From NCBI GenBank assembly GCA_905479265.1, contig CAJQLX010000050.1:1-58482 (forward strand): a DNA stretch of 58,482 nucleotides, given 5' to 3'. This stretch comes from an uncultured Alphaproteobacteria bacterium (lineage in GTDB: Bacteria > Pseudomonadota > Alphaproteobacteria > UBA7985). A program made the position numbers and the translations under genes. Below the pieces are notes generated by a model that was not told the DNA's origin, searched no databases, and saw only the letters and a list, made by a program, of their open reading frames with translations. Shown here one piece after another: positions 32,961 through 40,873 of this stretch (its first letter is position 1; each line of letters begins with the position of its first letter).

Positions 32961-33851
32961 TCAGGCGTCAAAGTCTGGCGCGATGTGCTCAACAAAGCGC
33001 GAAGCCGCGACAGAGAGCGTCCGCCCTTTGAGTTGAATCAGTTTCAGCACCGTGCGGGCCTGCGGGTGCTCGATAGGCCGAGCGACCAAACCCTTGGGCA
33101 GCGCGCGGTCTGCGTCGGATGTCATCAACCGAAAACTGATCATCTCTGAGTCGCGCACGCATTCGACGATGAAAAACAGGTTGGACGACTGAATCGAGCT
33201 GACCAAATCCACCTGAGTCGCCAGCGAAATGCGCTGTAGCACGTCATACAGAATCGTGTTTTCGCTGGGTGTGGCAAGGGGGAAGGGGGCGCAGTCCGCA
33301 AGGCTGACGCGGCTCTTTTTCGCAAGTGGATGGTTTTCGTCGAAAACGACATTCACGACTTGGCTCATGTTGCCCAGCAACATGATGTCCGGCGAAGATT
33401 GCGGTTCCAACACCACGGCGACATCAGCCTCGTACTGCTTCAGCATAGACTCGGCTTCGTCCTTGAATGTCTCGTAAACCTGAAAATCCACACCAGGAAA
33501 CTTTGCGAGATAAGACTGAATCTTCGTGGGAAAGTAATGCGGCAGCACAGCCGGCGAGCCAGCAAGGCGAATGGTCCCCAGGCGCACGCCTGAGAGATCA
33601 GCAATCTGTGATTTAACTTTCTCAAGATCCGCGAACTGCTGACGAACATGCATCAGCACCAGCTCCCCCGCTGTGTTCGGACGCAGGCCCGACGGGGTGC
33701 GCTCGAACAAGGGCGTCCCGAATTCTTCTTCCATGGCTAAAATGCGCCGATTGAGCGCGGAAGGGGTGATGGACGCTTGTATTGCCGCCTTACGCACAGA
33801 ACCAAATCGAGCAACAGCGTCCAACAGCTTGTATGTCGTTAGGTCTGACAT
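32961..33851 (-). CDS. LysR-family transcriptional regulator next to speD
   Basis: A 296-residue regulator: N-terminal winged helix-turn-helix (LLDAVARFGSVRKAAIQ, then TPSALNRRILAMEEEFG) and the two-lobed effector domain. It is divergent from speD across 183 bases, so speD is the likely target. It is convergent with the GNAT gene. The effector is unknown; if it controls speD it may sense a polyamine or S-adenosylmethionine-related compound (inference). Confidence 0.9.
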   Translation of the reverse strand: MSDLTTYKLLDAVARFGSVRKAAIQASITPSALNRRILAMEEEFGTPLFERTPSGLRPNTAGELVLMHVRQQFADLEKVKSQIADLSGVRLGTIRLAGSPAVLPHYFPTKIQSYLAKFPGVDFQVYETFKDEAESMLKQYEADVAVVLEPQSSPDIMLLGNMSQVVNVVFDENHPLAKKSRVSLADCAPFPLATPSENTILYDVLQRISLATQVDLVSSIQSSNLFFIVECVRDSEMISFRLMTSDADRALPKGLVARPIEHPQARTVLKLIQLKGRTLSVAASRFVEHIAPDFDA

Positions 33852-34034
33852 GATTACCCGTTGGTTCGCGTTTATTTGTGAAGATCATGAGCCATGGTGC
33901 AAACCATGCGCAACCGGTGAGTTTACGTGTCTGGATTGAGGGGGCTTGAGGCTCAATGCATCCTTGAGCTCTCATGATGCCGGGCATAGGCTACCGCCCA
34001 TCGCTCCATCTCCGCAAAGCAAGCACGGAAACTC

Positions 34035-34418
34035 ATGACCACACCCAATGCCGCCCCTGACGCTGTCGGTTCGCATGTCCTGCTTGATGCTTGGGACTGT
34101 CACATGCCGCTGGCTCAAGCGCCGTTAGAGGCTGTGCTCGTGGCCGCTGCGCAGGCTGCGGGGGCAAAGGTTTTGGGCGTGTATTTCCACGATTTCGAAG
34201 CGACGGCAGCGGGCACAGTGCCGGGGCGTACGGGTGTTGTCCTGCTCGCTGAATCTCACATCACGGTCCATACGTGGCCCGAGAATGGGTTTATCGCCAT
34301 CGACATTTTCATGTGTGGGAGCTGCGATCCTGACCTCGCTGCCGATTACATCGTCAACGCCCTGCAACCCGCCCGGCACCACCGCACGCAGATTGCGCGC
34401 GGGAAGGGCGCTACATGA
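34035..34418 (+). CDS. speD: S-adenosylmethionine decarboxylase proenzyme
   Basis: A 127-residue class 1b enzyme producing decarboxylated SAM, the aminopropyl donor for spermidine. The self-cleavage site lies between Glu73 and Ser74 in LAESHITVHTWPE; Ser74 becomes the pyruvoyl cofactor. The catalytic Cys follows in FMCGSCDP. The gene overlaps the end of the convergent aminopropyltransferase gene by eight bases, so the two transcripts are complementary at their 3' ends. A LysR gene is divergent upstream. Confidence 0.94.
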   Translation: MTTPNAAPDAVGSHVLLDAWDCHMPLAQAPLEAVLVAAAQAAGAKVLGVYFHDFEATAAGTVPGRTGVVLLAESHITVHTWPENGFIAIDIFMCGSCDPDLAADYIVNALQPARHHRTQIARGKGAT

Positions 34419-35982
34419 ACCATTGGGCCCAGCCGTCGAGGTAATATTCGACCAGCGCATGGTTGGTGAGGCGATTGGCCTCGACCGGTCGTTTGGCCGT
34501 ATCCGCTGGAAATGACTGGGCGGCGCCCCAAATCGCCGGGTTGAGATATCGTAGGGAAAGACCGGAAAGACCGCCGTCAACCGCGCCCGCCTGAAATCGC
34601 CCGCGATGCCCCAAAGCAAAGCCCCAATCGCCAAAGCTCGGCACATAGCCGTGATAGGCAAGGGTTTCTGCGTCAGTCGCTGAAAAGCCCTCGGACAGGC
34701 TGGCATTGACCGACCAAAAGGCGTCGGGCGCAAACGTCGGTGATCCGGCTTGCGTGACAACCACAGCCGAGCCGCTGGTTGACTGCCGAAGCAGGCGGTA
34801 AAACTCGACGGAATAGAGCTTGGAAAGGGCGTAGTCCTTTGGGTCGGGTAAATCCGCAATAACAACGTCATACAGGGCGTCGGGTTTCTGGTCAGCCAAA
34901 CGCGTCTCCAGAAACGTCCATGCGTCTGCGTTGTAAACGCTCACGCGGGGATCATTCAGCGCATTTGCGTTCAATTGGCGCAGGGTCGCATGGGTCGAGA
35001 ACAGCGTCGTTACCGCTGGGTCCAGATCGACCAAATCGACCTGTTTCACTGTTTCATGCTTGAGCACTTCCCGCGCCGCTAAACCATCGCCACCCCCCAG
35101 AATCAGCACCCGCTCGGCCCGCGCTGCGCCCAAGATTGCGGGGTGGACCAGCAGTTCGTGATAGCGGTGTTCGTCCAGGCTATCGAACTGAATGCCGTTG
35201 TTCAGATACAGCCGAAACCGGTCGAGGTACTTGGTGACAATGATCTTTTGATAGGGCGTGGTCTGGCTGTAGATGATGTCGTCTTCGAAAATCGCCGTAT
35301 CGGTGAGGGAAACGAGGCGCTCGGTATTCATGAGACCACCGACCAGCACCACAGCGGCCGCAAGCCAGAACACTTGCATGGCGCGACTCACACTGTCCCA
35401 GAACACCAGCAACGTAATCCCGGCAATGGCGAGGTTGAGCGTGCCGAACAGCAGGCTGGATGAAATCAGCCCGAGCAGCGGGACAATGATGATGGGAAAC
35501 ATCAGCGAGGCGACAAGGGCGCCCACGTAGTCGAGCGAGAGGACGTTCTCAAACCGAAACTTCGCGGCGCCCATCTCGTTCAACATGCGCACGATCAGGG
35601 GGATTTCCATACCGCTGAGCGCGCCCGTTGCGATGATAAGCACCAGCAGCAGCGCGCCGGTTGAGCCAACGTAGGCATAGACGAGAAACAGCAGCGGTGC
35701 CGATGCACCGCCAATCAGCGCGAGGGCCATTTGCCCCCAGATAAACCCGACCCGCGCCGTCCCGACATAGCGCGACACCCAAGCACCAATCCCCATCGAG
35801 GTGAGAAACAGGCCAATCACAAAGCTGAACTGACGAACGCTATCCCCGATCAGAAAGGTCGAGGATGTGGCGATGACCAGCTCGTAGAAAATGCCAGCGA
35901 TCGACACCAAAAAGGTCGCCGCAAGCAGCCAAAAGATCCTCAGCCGGCTGAATCGGGAATCGTCAGCAGCGGTGCCTGACAC
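34411..35982 (-). CDS. speE: Membrane-anchored polyamine aminopropyltransferase (spermidine synthase family)
   Basis: A 523-residue two-part protein. The N-terminal part (about residues 10-230) has seven or eight hydrophobic helices. The C-terminal part is an aminopropyltransferase: SAM-like binding GGGDGLAAREVL near residue 295, the acidic VDLDP, and the catalytic Asp region IADLPDP near 373. Typical soluble SpeE is about 290 residues and lacks the membrane part. It is the last gene of the DUF4178/DUF350 operon, starting three bases after the DUF350 stop. The membrane anchor suggests that the acceptor is a membrane or envelope component, or that the product is delivered at the membrane. Confidence 0.9.
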   Translation of the reverse strand: MSGTAADDSRFSRLRIFWLLAATFLVSIAGIFYELVIATSSTFLIGDSVRQFSFVIGLFLTSMGIGAWVSRYVGTARVGFIWGQMALALIGGASAPLLFLVYAYVGSTGALLLVLIIATGALSGMEIPLIVRMLNEMGAAKFRFENVLSLDYVGALVASLMFPIIIVPLLGLISSSLLFGTLNLAIAGITLLVFWDSVSRAMQVFWLAAAVVLVGGLMNTERLVSLTDTAIFEDDIIYSQTTPYQKIIVTKYLDRFRLYLNNGIQFDSLDEHRYHELLVHPAILGAARAERVLILGGGDGLAAREVLKHETVKQVDLVDLDPAVTTLFSTHATLRQLNANALNDPRVSVYNADAWTFLETRLADQKPDALYDVVIADLPDPKDYALSKLYSVEFYRLLRQSTSGSAVVVTQAGSPTFAPDAFWSVNASLSEGFSATDAETLAYHGYVPSFGDWGFALGHRGRFQAGAVDGGLSGLSLRYLNPAIWGAAQSFPADTAKRPVEANRLTNHALVEYYLDGWAQWFM

Positions 35983-35985
35983 CGA

Positions 35986-36198
35986 TTAGGACCGGATGAC
36001 AGCGGCGACAATCAGGGCGATGGCAAGGAATACAGCGCCGAGCAGAACCGCCATGGCCATGTTTTTCTCTTGCTGGATTTCCCGTGTGATCGAGAACGGC
36101 GTGAGCCGGTCAAACAGCCAGTAACTGCCGGCCAGCAACGCCAGACCAAGGCCTGCGAAAAAAATGGTGTTCAAAACTTCCAACATAAAAGCAGTCAT
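35986..36198 (-). CDS. DUF350 family membrane protein
   Basis: A 70-residue protein with two hydrophobic helices (NTIFFAGLGLALLAGSYWLF and MAVLLGAVFLAIALIVAAVI) joined by a charged loop with the ITREIQQEKN motif typical of DUF350. DUF350 proteins are inner-membrane proteins of unknown function, often repeated in tandem; this is a single half-length unit. Its start overlaps the stop of the 29-residue ORF upstream (ATGA), indicating coupled translation. As I recall from comparative genomics, DUF350 is often a neighbour of DUF4178 and polyamine genes. Confidence 0.87.
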   Translation of the reverse strand: MTAFMLEVLNTIFFAGLGLALLAGSYWLFDRLTPFSITREIQQEKNMAMAVLLGAVFLAIALIVAAVIRS

Positions 36199-36284
36199 AC
36201 GGCTTTCCTTCGTTTCAGGGTCTCAGACGATTGCGTCATCTTCAGCAGCAGCAGCAGCAACAAAAACAGCGGGCGAGGCATCAT
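36195..36284 (-). CDS. Putative 29-residue coupled micro-ORF with leucine-rich helix
   Basis: Starts at an ATG that overlaps the stop of the 55-residue ORF (ATGA) and ends in a TGA that overlaps the start of the DUF350 gene (ATGA). Both junctions are the overlaps used for translational coupling. The product starts MMPRPLFLLLLLLL, with seven consecutive Leu, five from a CTG run, then a basic tail (LKRRKAV). It would insert in the membrane. Alternatively it may only serve to carry ribosomes between the flanking genes. No family is recognised. Confidence 0.5.
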   Translation of the reverse strand: MMPRPLFLLLLLLLKMTQSSETLKRRKAV

Positions 36285-36448
36285 TTGGGGATGCCGCCAG
36301 CGAGGTAGGGGCCACCATTGCTGCCCATTCGAACGCTACGATCCAGATCGGCGTTGCTGTAGCCAACGGCACTTTCCGTCAGTCGGAACGCACCAACGGT
36401 GATGCCGACAAACAGGCTGATGATCGCAATGCGGAATATCCATTTCAT
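36281..36448 (-). CDS. Small single-helix membrane protein between DUF4178 and DUF350 genes
   Basis: A 55-residue ORF starting nine bases after the large DUF4178 stop. The N-terminus is a signal anchor (MKWIFRIAIISLFVGITVGA), followed by a short polar segment and a glycine-rich tail (MGSNGGPYLAGGIPK). It has no Cys, so it is not a lipoprotein. Its stop overlaps the next ORF start. Position within a tight operon and a protein-like N-terminus support it as a real gene; family unknown. Confidence 0.65.
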   Translation of the reverse strand: MKWIFRIAIISLFVGITVGAFRLTESAVGYSNADLDRSVRMGSNGGPYLAGGIPK

Positions 36449-36457
36449 GGCTTCATC

Positions 36458-37816
36458 CTACCAATCTGTTCCCGACCAATTTGTGATAGTGGACCACATT
36501 CGCCTCAAAGCTGACAGTGCAGCGATAAAGAGGAAGAGCAGTGCGGTCATGCCCAGCCATTTCACCGCACCCAGATTTTCGCGGACACTGTAGCGGACTG
36601 TGCTGATTTGCTCGATTCCCATGTTGCTGCCGGTCCAGACGCCCGTTTCTGGAATATCAAGCTCCAGCGTATAGTCACCCGCCGTCTCAGCCCGGAAACG
36701 AATACGCGTGTTGTTCGTTCCCTCAGACCAGCTTTCACCGCCTTCGACGCCGCGATAGACGCCGACCTCTCGACCGACTTCGAACACGGGAATGTCTTCA
36801 GGATCATAGATTCCGGTTTCGATCCAACCCCAGGCGTTTTGAGAGTCGGCCTGCACGTAAATTTCGACACCGCGACCCGCAGCCGTGACCTCGAATGGCA
36901 GTTCGAGCGGCAGGGCGGATATTTGAGTCGTGCCTTGCAGAACGATCGGTTTGTCATCGTTTGCCGCCGCCATCGCAAACAGGGTGATCGCAACGAAAAT
37001 GAGCGCGACCAAGGATGCAAAGTTCAGCGTGGGGCTTTTGGGCCAAGGGCGCAAAGGGTGGGGGACGTTGTGGCGCAGCGTGCCCCTGCGCAAACCAAAT
37101 TCCAGCTCGATCTCACGCTGGTTCAAATAGGAAATCTCGTCGAGTTCCCTTTCACCCGTGACCTCTCCACTGTCCAACTCTGGCTTGGAAACCTCAAACC
37201 CGCGCGGTTCTCCGCTGGGCTGTCCGGTGATGAAGATCTGCGCCAAATCATGCGAGGGCGCATAGAATTGACCGTAGCGCTTGTCGCCGAGGCTGGGTTT
37301 CCACGAAAATTCACCTTCGAGCGACTCAATGACGGCGGTTCCGCTTTCGTAGTATTGAAACAGCATGCCTTCGCGTCGGGCCGTTGGCGGGTTTTCCATC
37401 TGCTCGATTTCGCCCTTGCCATAGAGCGGAAAGGATCGCCGCGGTCTCACCCGCCGGGAAAAGGTCGCAACGCCCGTCTCAAAGGTCAGCCACGCATAGC
37501 CATGGGTTGGGGAATACAGCTGGTGCTCGGCCCAATGCCAGGCCGAAACCCCTTCGTATTCACCCATGCCGATGGTGCCGATGATCGTCCATTTGACGCC
37601 CCGGATCATGCCGCTCATCCCAATGGAAAACGGGGTGCGAGGGCGGTGTTGAAGCTGCAGTTGCAGGTCTCGAACGACGCGGAAATTCTCATTCGGGTCA
37701 AGCTCGCTGCCACAGGAGCCACAGAACGCACTCGCCACCCGCCCCCCGCCCAGCAAATCCAGACCTGCGCCGCAACTCGCGCAGTTGACGGCATCAACCG
37801 TGTCGGGGCTGCGCAT
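36458..37816 (-). CDS. Membrane DUF4178 protein with N-terminal zinc ribbon and periplasmic domain
   Basis: A 452-residue protein of unknown biochemical function. Order: a zinc-ribbon-like N-terminus (CASC near residue 13, CGSC near 33); a DUF4178-type beta-rich domain (about 45-215), with the characteristic GMSGMIRGVKWTIIG and WHWAEHQLYSP stretches; a transmembrane helix near 270-290; a beta-rich domain of about 120 residues that should be periplasmic; and a second helix near 425-445. The start overlaps the stop of the upstream DUF4178 gene by one base. It looks like a sensor or scaffold linking the cytosol and periplasm; that is inference. Confidence 0.82.
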   Translation of the reverse strand: MRSPDTVDAVNCASCGAGLDLLGGGRVASAFCGSCGSELDPNENFRVVRDLQLQLQHRPRTPFSIGMSGMIRGVKWTIIGTIGMGEYEGVSAWHWAEHQLYSPTHGYAWLTFETGVATFSRRVRPRRSFPLYGKGEIEQMENPPTARREGMLFQYYESGTAVIESLEGEFSWKPSLGDKRYGQFYAPSHDLAQIFITGQPSGEPRGFEVSKPELDSGEVTGERELDEISYLNQREIELEFGLRRGTLRHNVPHPLRPWPKSPTLNFASLVALIFVAITLFAMAAANDDKPIVLQGTTQISALPLELPFEVTAAGRGVEIYVQADSQNAWGWIETGIYDPEDIPVFEVGREVGVYRGVEGGESWSEGTNNTRIRFRAETAGDYTLELDIPETGVWTGSNMGIEQISTVRYSVRENLGAVKWLGMTALLFLFIAALSALRRMWSTITNWSGTDW

Positions 37817-38562
37817 CAGCTTGCCCTTTCGACGTCAAAGGGGCTGTACCAGCGCCCCAGGAACCAGTCGGGATCCGTATCGCTTGCGTCGTCGATCTCG
37901 CAGCTCAGCAGGGATCCACCGCGTCCTTCAGCGTTGATATAGCGGTAGGTTTGTCCGATCTCGATAGGTTCAGGCCATGAGCCTTCGAACCCCAAGCAGG
38001 TCGCTTGTTCGGCTTCGGTGACTTTGTATTCAGCGTTTTCGTAGATCAGCGTGTCGCCGGGTTTGAGGAACCGGGCGGTTGACCCATCCATCGCTTTGCT
38101 GGGCGTTGATTTGGCCCATTCGTGATCAACAGCCTCGCGCTTGACCGACAGGTCGGCAGCCTCAAGCTGTCGCTGGATAACGACGTCGCCTTCATCCACG
38201 CTCAACCAATAAATTTCGTCCGTGTCGGCAATGTCGGTGCGGGCAACCCAGTATTCGTCCCAAATACCGCGCCCGTAACTATACTGCGCGCGGCCATAAA
38301 TCTCGAAGGAGCCATGGGCCAGATCAAAGCGGTCGCCCACAGCCAGCAGCGCCTCGCCCATGTGCACTTGCCCCGCAGAACCGGCGGCGCTGATGTCGTC
38401 TTTATTGACGATCAGCGTGGTCTGGCAATAGGCGCAGGCGTGGAGTCGGGCGCTACGGGGTGGGGTCGACAGTTCGGCACCACAGTTTGGGCAGGAAGCA
38501 GACACAGCAATCGCGTTCTGTTGATCGTTTATAATCCGATGCGGAGTATGCACCTGCATCAA
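37816..38562 (-). CDS. Cytosolic DUF4178 protein with zinc ribbon
   Basis: A 248-residue protein, first gene of the membrane-polyamine operon. The N-terminus has a zinc ribbon (CPNCGAE near residue 24 and CAYC near 43). The rest is a DUF4178 domain (AVGDRFDLAHGSFEIYGRAQ, DEYWVARTDIADTDEIYWLS). No membrane helix is seen. DUF4178 function is unknown; the family is often encoded with DUF350 and aminopropyltransferase genes. Two paralogues in a row, one soluble and one membrane-bound, suggest a complex. Confidence 0.83.
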   Translation of the reverse strand: MMQVHTPHRIINDQQNAIAVSASCPNCGAELSTPPRSARLHACAYCQTTLIVNKDDISAAGSAGQVHMGEALLAVGDRFDLAHGSFEIYGRAQYSYGRGIWDEYWVARTDIADTDEIYWLSVDEGDVVIQRQLEAADLSVKREAVDHEWAKSTPSKAMDGSTARFLKPGDTLIYENAEYKVTEAEQATCLGFEGSWPEPIEIGQTYRYINAEGRGGSLLSCEIDDASDTDPDWFLGRWYSPFDVERAS

Positions 38563-38665
38563 GCTTTTGACCAGACGCCGAGGTGATACAGAAGTTGTAT
38601 AGGCGAGGCAATGAACCCGCCATAAATCGTTGAAGGATCGGGCGCTCCGCAGATTGAATTTGGCT

Positions 38666-38704
38666 GGTTTTGACCGGTTTTGTCCGGTTTAAGCCGTTTT
38701 GAGC
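38666..38704. repeat. Four imperfect 10-bp direct repeats (GGTTTTGACC type)
   Basis: The units GGTTTTGACC, GGTTTTGTCC, GGTTTAAGCC and GTTTTGAGC follow one another with a 10-bp period. They span the stop of the cupin gene and lie about 100 bases upstream of the DUF4178 operon start. The period equals about one helical turn, as in cooperative binding sites. No known regulator site is recognised. Confidence 0.6.
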
Positions 38705-39372
38705 TGCGCTTCGATCTCGGCCCAATCATCACGCGGCGTAACCGCGCATTGGCCTTGGATGTCATTCAACCACGAAAAAACCGATAGGAATGGCGTTTCA
38801 TAGCTGCGTGTCGCGTGAACGGCATTGGGCGGGTTAAAAATGATGGATCCAGCGCCATGATCTTGCCAGTCGCCGTCGTCGAAACGCCACCCTGTGCGGG
38901 GCGAAAGGTTGATGTAGGTTTCTGGCGCGTCATGCTGATGATCGCGGTACAACGTCCGCGGCCCAAGCATAAACAACCCCAAGGTAAAATCATCGTGGTG
39001 GAAGCCACAGGCGCCGGGTCCAATCAGCAGTGTATGAAGGTTAGTCTGAATGTAGCCCGCACCCAAATCTGATTCCGGTGGATAGTATTTCATGTCGTCC
39101 TGCTGCCACCGTAAATCGTCCTTTGCTGCGATCAAACACTGACGCAAGGGTTGGAGAGCAGGGGTCGATATGGTGCCAATGGCCGTATCCAAAACCGCTT
39201 CGTGGCAGGGAATGCGGGGGGGAAGATCCGCAAAGGCGTCGGGGTGCAGGTCCGTGGACTCCACGCGCGCTATCGTCCGTGCCGCAGCGGGGACAGCAGC
39301 AGCGCCGTCGCTGGCCAAAAGGGCTGTAACCGCATCAATAACGGCGCGAACGCGTGCTTGTTTGTCCGACAT
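38689..39372 (-). CDS. DMSP-lyase-family (DddL/DddQ-like) cupin
   Basis: A 227-residue protein with a C-terminal cupin. The metal-site motif is RDHQHDAPETYINLS, a close relative of the HxHxxxExY pattern of DddL/DddQ-type dimethylsulfoniopropionate lyases; a later His in NAVHATRSYETP completes the usual ligand set. The FTLGLFMLGPRTLY lead-in also matches that family. DddL cleaves DMSP to acrylate and dimethyl sulfide, but family members with other activities are common. It is last in a four-gene catabolic operon whose other enzymes do not form a standard acrylate route, so DMSP is only one candidate substrate. Confidence 0.72.
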   Translation of the reverse strand: MSDKQARVRAVIDAVTALLASDGAAAVPAAARTIARVESTDLHPDAFADLPPRIPCHEAVLDTAIGTISTPALQPLRQCLIAAKDDLRWQQDDMKYYPPESDLGAGYIQTNLHTLLIGPGACGFHHDDFTLGLFMLGPRTLYRDHQHDAPETYINLSPRTGWRFDDGDWQDHGAGSIIFNPPNAVHATRSYETPFLSVFSWLNDIQGQCAVTPRDDWAEIEAQLKTA

Positions 39373-39391
39373 GTCTTAGGCCGCCTTAGGG

Positions 39392-40873
39392 TTATTCAAA
39401 GGGGTGCGCTTGGCTGGGCAAGGTCGCCAGCCAGACGGACTTGGTTTGCATGAAACAGCGCATGCCCTCGATCCCGTTTTCCCGGCCATAGCCCGACTGC
39501 TTAAACCCACCCACAGGGCTTTGCGTCGCGGCGTTGAAGTAGTTGTTGATATAGACGGTGCCCGCCTCGATCCGATTTGCCATTCGCATGCCCAAAGCGA
39601 CGTCAGCGGTCCAAATTCCGGCTGCGAGACCGTAGGGCGTGTCGTTCGCCTTTTGGATAACGTCGTCGTCGTCCGTCCACGCTTCTGTGCTGGCAACGGG
39701 GCCGAAAACTTCGGTTTGTGCCAAGGACGCGGTATTGGGGACATTGGCGAAGATCGTCGGGCCAACGAAATAGCCTTCGTCGCGCTTTGCTGTACGACCA
39801 TCGAGCACCAGCGCGTGTCCTGCCGCGACCGCTGCATCAATCTTGACGATAACAGACTCATAGTGCGGGCGATTGGCGAGGGGGCCGATGGTGCTGCGCG
39901 GATCAGACGGCGGACCGACCACGGCTTTGCTGGCAATGTCCACCAGCCGGGCGGTGAACGCGTCGATGACGCTGGCGTGGATCAGCAGACGAGAGCCGGA
40001 GATACAGCTTTGACCACCGCCGGGGAAAATTGCGCTTGCGATACCCTTGGCCGCAAGATCGAGGTCAGCATCCGCGCGAACAATCTGCGGAGACTTGCCG
40101 CCCAACTCCATGATGACAGGTTTCACCTGCTCTGCCGCGAGAGCCGCGACCGCGCGACCGCCACTGGTCCCGCCGGTAAAGCTGATCATGCGCACGTCGG
40201 GGTGGCGGACCAAGGGCGCGCCGGTGGTTGCGCCAAAGCCGGTGACAACGTTCAGCACACCCGGTGGCAGAACGTCGGCTTGGTTAAGGATATCCATGAG
40301 TTCCAGCACGGAACAGCTTGCATGTTCCGAAGGTTTGATCACGGCTGTATTTCCGGCGGCCAAAGCCGCTGCGAGCTTCCAGATCAGCGTTCCAATTGGC
40401 GCATTCCATGGCAGAAACAGCGCGACAACGCCAAAGGGCTCCCACGTCATGTAATTGTGCATATTTGGCATTTCAGCGGGGATCAAACTGCCCTCAAACT
40501 TATCGCAGAGTCCGGCGTAGTAGTGCCAACTGTCCACTTGCCACCCGCCTTCACTCAAGCCCGGCGCGATGTTGCTGGTCCGGCCATTATCGCGCAGCTC
40601 AACCGCGCCAAGACGCTCGGCGTTGGCGGTTATGACCTCCCCGATGCGGCGCAGGACACGCCCCCGCTGCGCCGGAAGCAAGGTGCCCCATGGCCCCTGG
40701 TAGAACGCAGCTTTCGCCGCGCTGACAGCGCGGTCGATGTCGGCCTCGCCACAGTCTGGAACGCGCGCCCAAACCTTGCCGTCAGCCGGGTTTTCGGAGT
40801 CAAACCACTGGCCGTTGTGGGGATCGTGCCATTGGTTGTTGGCGAAGTACTGGAAGGTAACGGGGTCAGACAT
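39392..40873 (-). CDS. Aldehyde dehydrogenase
   Basis: A 493-residue NAD(P)-dependent enzyme. The catalytic Cys is in GGGQSCISGSRLLI, the general base Glu in MELGGKSPQIV, and the late PVGGFKQSGYGRENG is typical of the betaine-aldehyde/phenylacetaldehyde group. Its first codons overlap the end of the GMC oxidoreductase gene by eight bases. The pair would oxidise an alcohol to an acid in two steps. The aldehyde is unknown; betaine aldehyde is possible. Confidence 0.9.
   Translation of the reverse strand: MSDPVTFQYFANNQWHDPHNGQWFDSENPADGKVWARVPDCGEADIDRAVSAAKAAFYQGPWGTLLPAQRGRVLRRIGEVITANAERLGAVELRDNGRTSNIAPGLSEGGWQVDSWHYYAGLCDKFEGSLIPAEMPNMHNYMTWEPFGVVALFLPWNAPIGTLIWKLAAALAAGNTAVIKPSEHASCSVLELMDILNQADVLPPGVLNVVTGFGATTGAPLVRHPDVRMISFTGGTSGGRAVAALAAEQVKPVIMELGGKSPQIVRADADLDLAAKGIASAIFPGGGQSCISGSRLLIHASVIDAFTARLVDIASKAVVGPPSDPRSTIGPLANRPHYESVIVKIDAAVAAGHALVLDGRTAKRDEGYFVGPTIFANVPNTASLAQTEVFGPVASTEAWTDDDDVIQKANDTPYGLAAGIWTADVALGMRMANRIEAGTVYINNYFNAATQSPVGGFKQSGYGRENGIEGMRCFMQTKSVWLATLPSQAHPFE

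Follow-up and report, generated by a model that had tools for sequence, protein, structure and literature searches.

The window analysed here, the whole stretch of 58,482 nucleotides from an uncultured alphaproteobacterium, carries a cassette of polyamine and membrane-protein genes (Table 1) and raises the question of whether the gap between its second DUF4178-type gene and its DUF350 gene encodes anything and, if so, what a product at this position might do. A sequence-only reading had placed two ORFs in the gap, of 55 and 29 codons, joined to each other and to DUF350 by ATGA overlaps, and both the coordinates and the overlaps are correct. On the minus strand the 55-codon ORF begins with an ATG 9 nt past the DUF4178 stop and closes in a TGA that overlaps the first codon, ATG, of the 29-codon ORF; the TGA of the latter in turn overlaps the DUF350 ATG (36196–36198). 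Comparison with related cassettes shows the 55-codon ORF to be a genuine gene, encoding a single-pass membrane microprotein with a flexible Gly/Ser-rich tail that ends in lysine. The conserved C-terminal lysine is the key feature of this protein, and is absent from the earlier reading.

The second DUF4178-type protein of the window gives no Pfam DUF4178 match on its own; its counterpart at locus L010 matches PF13785. No Rfam match was found across 33800–39500, and promoter and terminator scans gave results near chance level. Immediately upstream of the cassette, at 38689–39372 and on the same strand, lies a gene for a member of the DMSP lyase family (PF16867, E 1e-26).

Table 1. Positions of the cassette features in the window and the basis for each assignment.
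Feature	Position	Strand	Basis
First DUF4178 protein, zinc ribbon, 248 aa	37816..38562	-	PF13785 E 6.9e-16
Second DUF4178-type protein, zinc ribbon and TM helices, 452 aa	36458..37816	-	28% identity to L010 member
AGGA, ribosome-binding-like, 7 nt 5' of microprotein ATG	36456..36459	-	sequence
Lysine-tailed membrane microprotein, 55 aa: one TM helix, Gly-containing tail, C-terminal ...GGIPK	36281..36448	-	ORF and comparison
29-codon ORF (poly-Leu), unsupported as gene	36195..36284	-	counterpart lacking; 22.9% open by chance
AAGGAAA, ribosome-binding-like site of DUF350, within end of 29-codon ORF	36204..36210	-	sequence
DUF350 membrane protein, 70 aa	35986..36198	-	PF03994 E 1.7e-13
7TM-aminopropyltransferase (SpeE type), 523 aa	34411..35982	-	PF01564 E 4.9e-32; NF002956; AlphaFold pLDDT 87.6
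SpeD, S-adenosylmethionine decarboxylase, convergent with SpeE	34035..34418	+	PF02675 E 8.1e-30

Relatives of the cassette were sought using the second DUF4178-type gene as the anchor. With the window protein as query this gene is rare, occurring in 1 of 6 genomes of the genus, counting that of the window, in 1 of 11 of the order, and in 3 of 385 of the class; none of the five other genus members or the ten other order members has it, and a first contig scan with the window protein alone returned no match. Alignment queries located the anchor gene in 12 of 246 genomes of the G022 order, 20 of 398 of the phylum, 22 of 295 of the G928 family, and 47 of 300 of the G702 order. Tritonibacter L157 resembles the G928 family and Burkholderia L158 the G702 order, lineage labels that we infer. 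The first batch comprised 103 cassettes, namely the window, 22 others, and the best 80 of 342 relatives kept as loci from a scan of named genomes, mostly Sphingomonadaceae, with some genomes occurring twice; the second comprised 64 loci, five of which repeat earlier genomes (L161, L162, L202, L209, and L211). The recurring arrangement is DUF4178-DUF4178-DUF350-7TM spermidine synthase, often accompanied by SPFH, amine oxidase, and SpeD. Cassettes with a counterpart of the 55-mer come from other Pseudomonadota and one Gemmatimonadota. On a plasmid of Gemmatirosa kalamazoonensis (L155, Gemmatimonadota), SpeD lies between SPFH and DUF4178 and the tail ends in ...RHGK, and a contig labelled Candidatus Obscuribacter (L146) carries a cassette resembling the proteobacterial ones, which points to misbinning or transfer. 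Among the 24 genomes checked for a full-length 7TM-SpeE, all 18 of the G702-order genomes carrying the DUF4178 gene have one, and neither the window's five genus-mates nor G1127 does; SpeD is present in 27 of 27 cassette genomes of one set and in three of four of another (not in G1396).

Each gap following the second DUF4178 gene was represented by whichever of its ORFs with 30 or more codons is the most hydrophobic, a rule that is blind to the last residue. An ORF was found in 102 of the 103 first-batch cassettes, the remaining one (L134) being truncated, and these counterparts share the position, a single TM helix, and a tail rich in Gly and Ser that, with one exception, closes in lysine. 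Lysine is terminal in 101 of 102 loci, equal to 94 of 95 distinct proteins; in the exception, L128, the Lys-ended protein is the second choice of the rule. Only one of 76 other ORFs of the same gaps ends in lysine, as do 19 of 669 other first-batch cassette proteins, of which 17 are SPFH. The second batch yielded a gap ORF in 58 of 64 loci, Lys-ended in 53 of the 58. Four of its five exceptions have a Lys-ended ORF as second choice and L216 has none, and the six loci without a gap ORF are accounted for by truncation (L182, L208), by repetition of an earlier genome (L202), and by fusion of the tail (L209, L211, L222). These rule-based counts are the fair ones, because the pooled set of 108 loci, which gives 101 distinct proteins that all end in lysine, includes the protein chosen for L128 and six hand-picked members from plasmids. 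The six plasmid loci, one of them from Gemmatimonadota, are all Lys-ended. Among the 101 distinct proteins the penultimate residue is His in 91, Val in four, Gly in three, Ile in two, and Pro in one, which is the window protein. A second conserved C-terminus of the cassette is a final Gly on DUF350, present in 86 of 94 cassettes (e.g., ...AAIHG); the DUF350 of the window closes in ...IRS.

Evidence for selection comes from the DNA of these genes. In 102 distinct DNAs the terminal Lys codon is AAA in 78 and AAG in 24, followed by TAG in 38, TAA in 34, and TGA in 30; use of both codons and all three stops indicates that selection acts on the residue. The pooled pN/pS is 0.16 over 14 independent close pairs drawn from other members of the family, the window copy having no genus-mate (0 of 5) with the cassette gene to be paired with. 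Shifted into the other two frames, this DNA yields pN/pS values of 2.0 and 2.4, and substitutions in the close pairs are distributed over the codon positions as 46/32/166. Searches of Pfam and NCBIfam with the window 55-mer and ten other members returned no match above cut-off, with sub-threshold E values of 0.02–0.24 for two members.

The window ORF shares with the family its position, flanked by the second DUF4178 gene on one side and the following cassette gene on the other, a TM helix (hydropathy 2.18 over 17 residues) followed by the tail GSNGGPYLAGGIPK, and a lysine as last residue. It has DLDRSVR-GS-GG in common with the Rhodobacterales-type members, and BLASTP against the Tritonibacter L157 protein as a single comparison gives 45% over 47 residues (E 8e-10). 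An HMM of six Rhodobacterales-type members ranks it first of 1516 window segments, with E 7.3e-7 and the next segment at 2.1; an HMM built from 100 members, with the window protein left out, places it third with E 2.2, which is not significant. The window SpeE carries the DLPDPK motif, as seen with tails ending in VK and IK.

Eight cassettes (L062–L064, L066–L069, and L072) seemingly have no microprotein, and in all eight the C-terminus of the DUF4178 protein consists of a TM helix followed by a Gly/Ser tail with the end ...HK. The DUF4178 protein has no such fused tail in the four cassettes with a separate microprotein that were compared (L065, L070, L071, and L158). Likewise, L222 has a fused tail and its genus-mates L221 and L224 a separate gene. 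The L221 genome (G1465) has two DUF4178 copies, one with a free tail and the other with a fused ...YSGGHK end. At L216 (G1319) no tail lies nearby, and a Lys-tailed ORF overlaps the speD start on another contig. The idea that some cassettes lack the tail altogether was rejected in view of the eight fused tails and the L216 copy displaced to speD. A plasmid search anchored on SpeE found exactly one matching tail within ~15 kb in 10 of 10 records with a full-length SpeE; an eleventh record, L233, holds a piece of SpeE only and no tail.

The shorter ORF fares differently. The 55-mer exceeds what chance would give, by its conserved counterparts, its HMM match, and the low pN/pS of other members; the 29-mer does not, and the double-relay argument is weak: with the ATGA ends fixed, the interior stays open in 22.9% of 5000 dinucleotide shuffles. 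The 92 other cassettes measured could not accommodate it because the distance from the microprotein stop to the aligned DUF350 start is −8 to 68 nt in these; the median spacer over all 93 cassettes is 18 nt and that of the window, 82 nt, is the longest. Its seven consecutive Leu are a CTG/TTG triplet run at 36243–36263. No ribosome-binding-like site was seen 5' of the 29-codon ORF in the window sequence, and the DUF350 ATG is preceded at 5 nt by AAGGAAA. The proposal that both ORFs are real and translationally coupled has in its favor the two ATGA overlaps in the window, but given the lack of room elsewhere, the chance opening, and the ribosome-binding-like site that DUF350 carries for itself, it is extremely improbable; the 29-mer was rejected as a gene on the same grounds and looks like a chance reading of the spacer. 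In the other cassettes measured the gap holds no counterpart of the 29-mer, and the prediction of single-helix membrane peptides in a polyamine operon survives for the 55-mer, as a conserved family, and lapses for the 29-mer. Annotation does not always overlook the 55-mer, as its size had suggested it might: in the one annotated relative examined, PGAP lists its counterpart as a 'hypothetical protein' (WP_193828724.1).

The window SpeE passes NF002956 (7TM-spermidine synthase, PRK03612 type) with 577.6 bits against a cut-off of 472. Its AlphaFold model, built from 18 sequences (pLDDT 87.6, pTM 0.75), has seven helices in residues 5–218, a short helix, and then the aminopropyltransferase domain, and searches by solved structure and by fold find polyamine aminopropyltransferases as its nearest relatives, which confirms the fold only. 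The motifs Q..DE..YHE and D.PDP are kept in all 117 distinct SpeE proteins and GGGDG in 115. The canonical acceptor-loop motif D.[TS]DP.G occurs in none of the 117, all of which have D.PDP, unlike the aligned PDB chains, which carry T or S before DP. Judged from these sequences, absence of the canonical motif may reflect a changed acceptor or a changed activity.

Topology calls were made with rules of thumb applied to related sequences. Lys and Arg in the SpeE loops are skewed to the N-terminal side (mean 10.9 versus 3.9, all 117 agreeing), and the aminopropyltransferase domain is placed outside in 117 of 117 because of these positive-inside charges and the seven helices, a placement that depends on the helix count. 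Helix flanks of the microprotein, read by the positive-inside rule, put the tail outside the cytoplasm in 150 of 155 proteins. The charge of the whole tail exceeds that of the N-terminus and points inward in 109 of 155; the cytosolic tail that this would imply was set aside in view of the opposite signal of the helix flanks. The amine oxidase (PF01593, E 4.4e-13) has a Tat-like N-terminus in 81 of 93. By these estimates the enzyme domain of SpeE, the amine oxidase, and the microprotein tail would all be extracytoplasmic. A loose lipobox-like Cys is found in 10 of 155 tail proteins and is absent from that of the window.

Comparison has shown the conserved position, the TM helix, purifying selection in relatives, the near-invariant terminal Lys, the fusion to DUF4178, and the linkage to speD and 7TM-SpeE. 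The best explanation of the locus as a whole, offered tentatively, is a real gene for a Lys-tailed microprotein whose tail would be the aminopropyl acceptor of 7TM-SpeE, the acceptor role being the part that we infer. The tail is a candidate acceptor because a Lys-ended, flexible, membrane-tethered tail co-occurs with an aminopropyltransferase and SpeD, and the membrane-bound polyamine enzyme may chemically modify the terminal lysine. In such a scheme SpeD would make decarboxylated AdoMet, and since this arises in the cytoplasm, an enzyme on the outside needs a transport step, which is unproven; passage outward by the 7TM domain or DUF350 is a speculative route. The aminopropyltransferase domain, predicted on the outer face with the tail, would move the aminopropyl group onto the terminal Lys at its side-chain amine, the side chain being a butylamine that would mimic putrescine as acceptor. 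The product would be an aminopropyl-lysine (hypusine-like) end, and the Tat-signal amine oxidase, where present, could act on the aminopropyl group. Taken in full, the scheme would be a system for protein modification at the external side of the inner membrane: the 7TM domain or DUF350 would supply decarboxylated AdoMet, the membrane aminopropyltransferase would modify the C-terminal Lys of the microprotein or of the DUF4178-fused tail, and what is formed could then be acted on by the exported amine oxidase. In this full form it is on the unlikely side.

Several observations bear against this explanation, among them the need for a transport step, the charge of the whole tail, the varying penultimate residue, the missing canonical acceptor-loop motif, and the failure of the whole-family HMM to find the window ORF; the fusion to DUF4178 is just as compatible with a structural part. 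The Lys-ended tail may instead be an unmodified docking or assembly signal whose C-terminus, held in a pocket of DUF350, SPFH, or SpeE, keeps a membrane complex together. This reading, possible rather than probable and of similar weight to the leading proposal, accords with the constant gene order beside DUF4178 and DUF350 and with the eight fused tails, from which it follows that physical association with DUF4178 suffices; however, it leaves unexplained the displaced copy beside speD and the choice of lysine, a putrescine-like residue, beside an aminopropyltransferase.

The co-occurrence of the tail with SpeE and SpeD, its butylamine side chain, and its flexible Gly-rich linker would also suit a substrate-mimic regulator, in which the terminal Lys would plug the SpeE acceptor pocket and be displaced by polyamines, making the complex a polyamine sensor. 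A regulator, however, need not keep one terminal residue in nearly every cassette, and this alternative is improbable. Modification of the terminal amine by another cassette enzyme, e.g., the exported amine oxidase, which would oxidize it to an aldehyde, is suggested by the PF01593 match and the frequent Tat-like start of that protein, but the Lys tail is still there beside the window SpeE and in five Rhodobacterales-type cassettes, where the amine oxidase is absent, and such a reaction is very unlikely to account for the tail.

The acceptor proposal can be set beside known chemistry. Deoxyhypusine synthase, a cytosolic, NAD-dependent enzyme, transfers an aminobutyl group from spermidine to an internal lysine; the proposal shares with hypusine a polyamine-derived group on a lysine side chain and differs in each of those respects. 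In E. coli the yjfIJKLMC operon, with the DUF350 neighbor yjfL, encodes YjfM with the tail ...GHWGG, and ygiBC encodes YgiB with the tail ...SMGG, each adjacent to an annotated peptide–spermidine ligase; for the ligase of the DUF350 operon the reference is said to be Pederick 2023. Both operons resemble the cassette in having a protein with a Gly/Ser-rich C-terminal tail beside a polyamine-attaching enzyme, and the first also in its DUF350 neighbor, whereas the enzyme is an ATP-grasp ligase and the tails end in Gly-Gly; the likeness drawn is one of arrangement. By analogy, YjfM and YgiB would be candidate substrates of the peptide–spermidine ligases. These two DUF1190 proteins (L159, L228) have their Gly-Gly ends after Ser/Gly-rich tails. 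Lysine amines bearing aminopropyl units are described for diatom silaffins, which share aminopropyl-lysine with the proposed product and differ as eukaryotic biosilica peptides (PMC4557024).

Operons with DUF4178, DUF350, and a spermidine synthase fused to a 7TM region appear in the accessible text of the PSP survey, which includes in them a small 'novel lipoprotein (Ctha_1186 domain)' and raises the possibility that other substrates are aminopropylated (PMC11237479). The group described there has a CesT/Tir-PspA dyad and an 8TM DUF350, whereas the present cassettes have SPFH or nothing in place of the dyad and a DUF350 of ~70 aa; the Ctha_1186 lipoprotein is likened to the microprotein by description alone, and the main text of the survey does not mention the terminal lysine, the word 'lysine' having 0 occurrences (PMC11237479). 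The same text describes an actinobacterial DUF4247 variant, a related polyamine operon in which the small partner is a secreted protein or lipoprotein (PMC11237479). It shares the small-partner arrangement, as compared by description, and no Pfam DUF4247 match was found in ten tail proteins and the window protein. The literature searched, which includes few subscription papers and has DUF4178 in one paper, contains no description of the microprotein or of a lysine-modifying SpeE, and neither do the accessible portions of PMC11107197 and PMC10407285. The cassette type is known, and the microprotein family, its fused form, and its terminal lysine appear to be undescribed in the searchable literature.

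Many bacteria have operons that combine DUF350 and DUF4178 with polyamine enzymes and that still await an explanation; the conserved Lys-ended tail, free or borne by DUF4178, provides them with a concrete candidate substrate. It also defines a conserved family of ~50-residue proteins for which there is no Pfam or NCBIfam model. If modification on the outer face proves true, SpeD and SpeE would have a non-polyamine use, and the reaction would be, to our knowledge, the first extracytoplasmic one of decarboxylated AdoMet.
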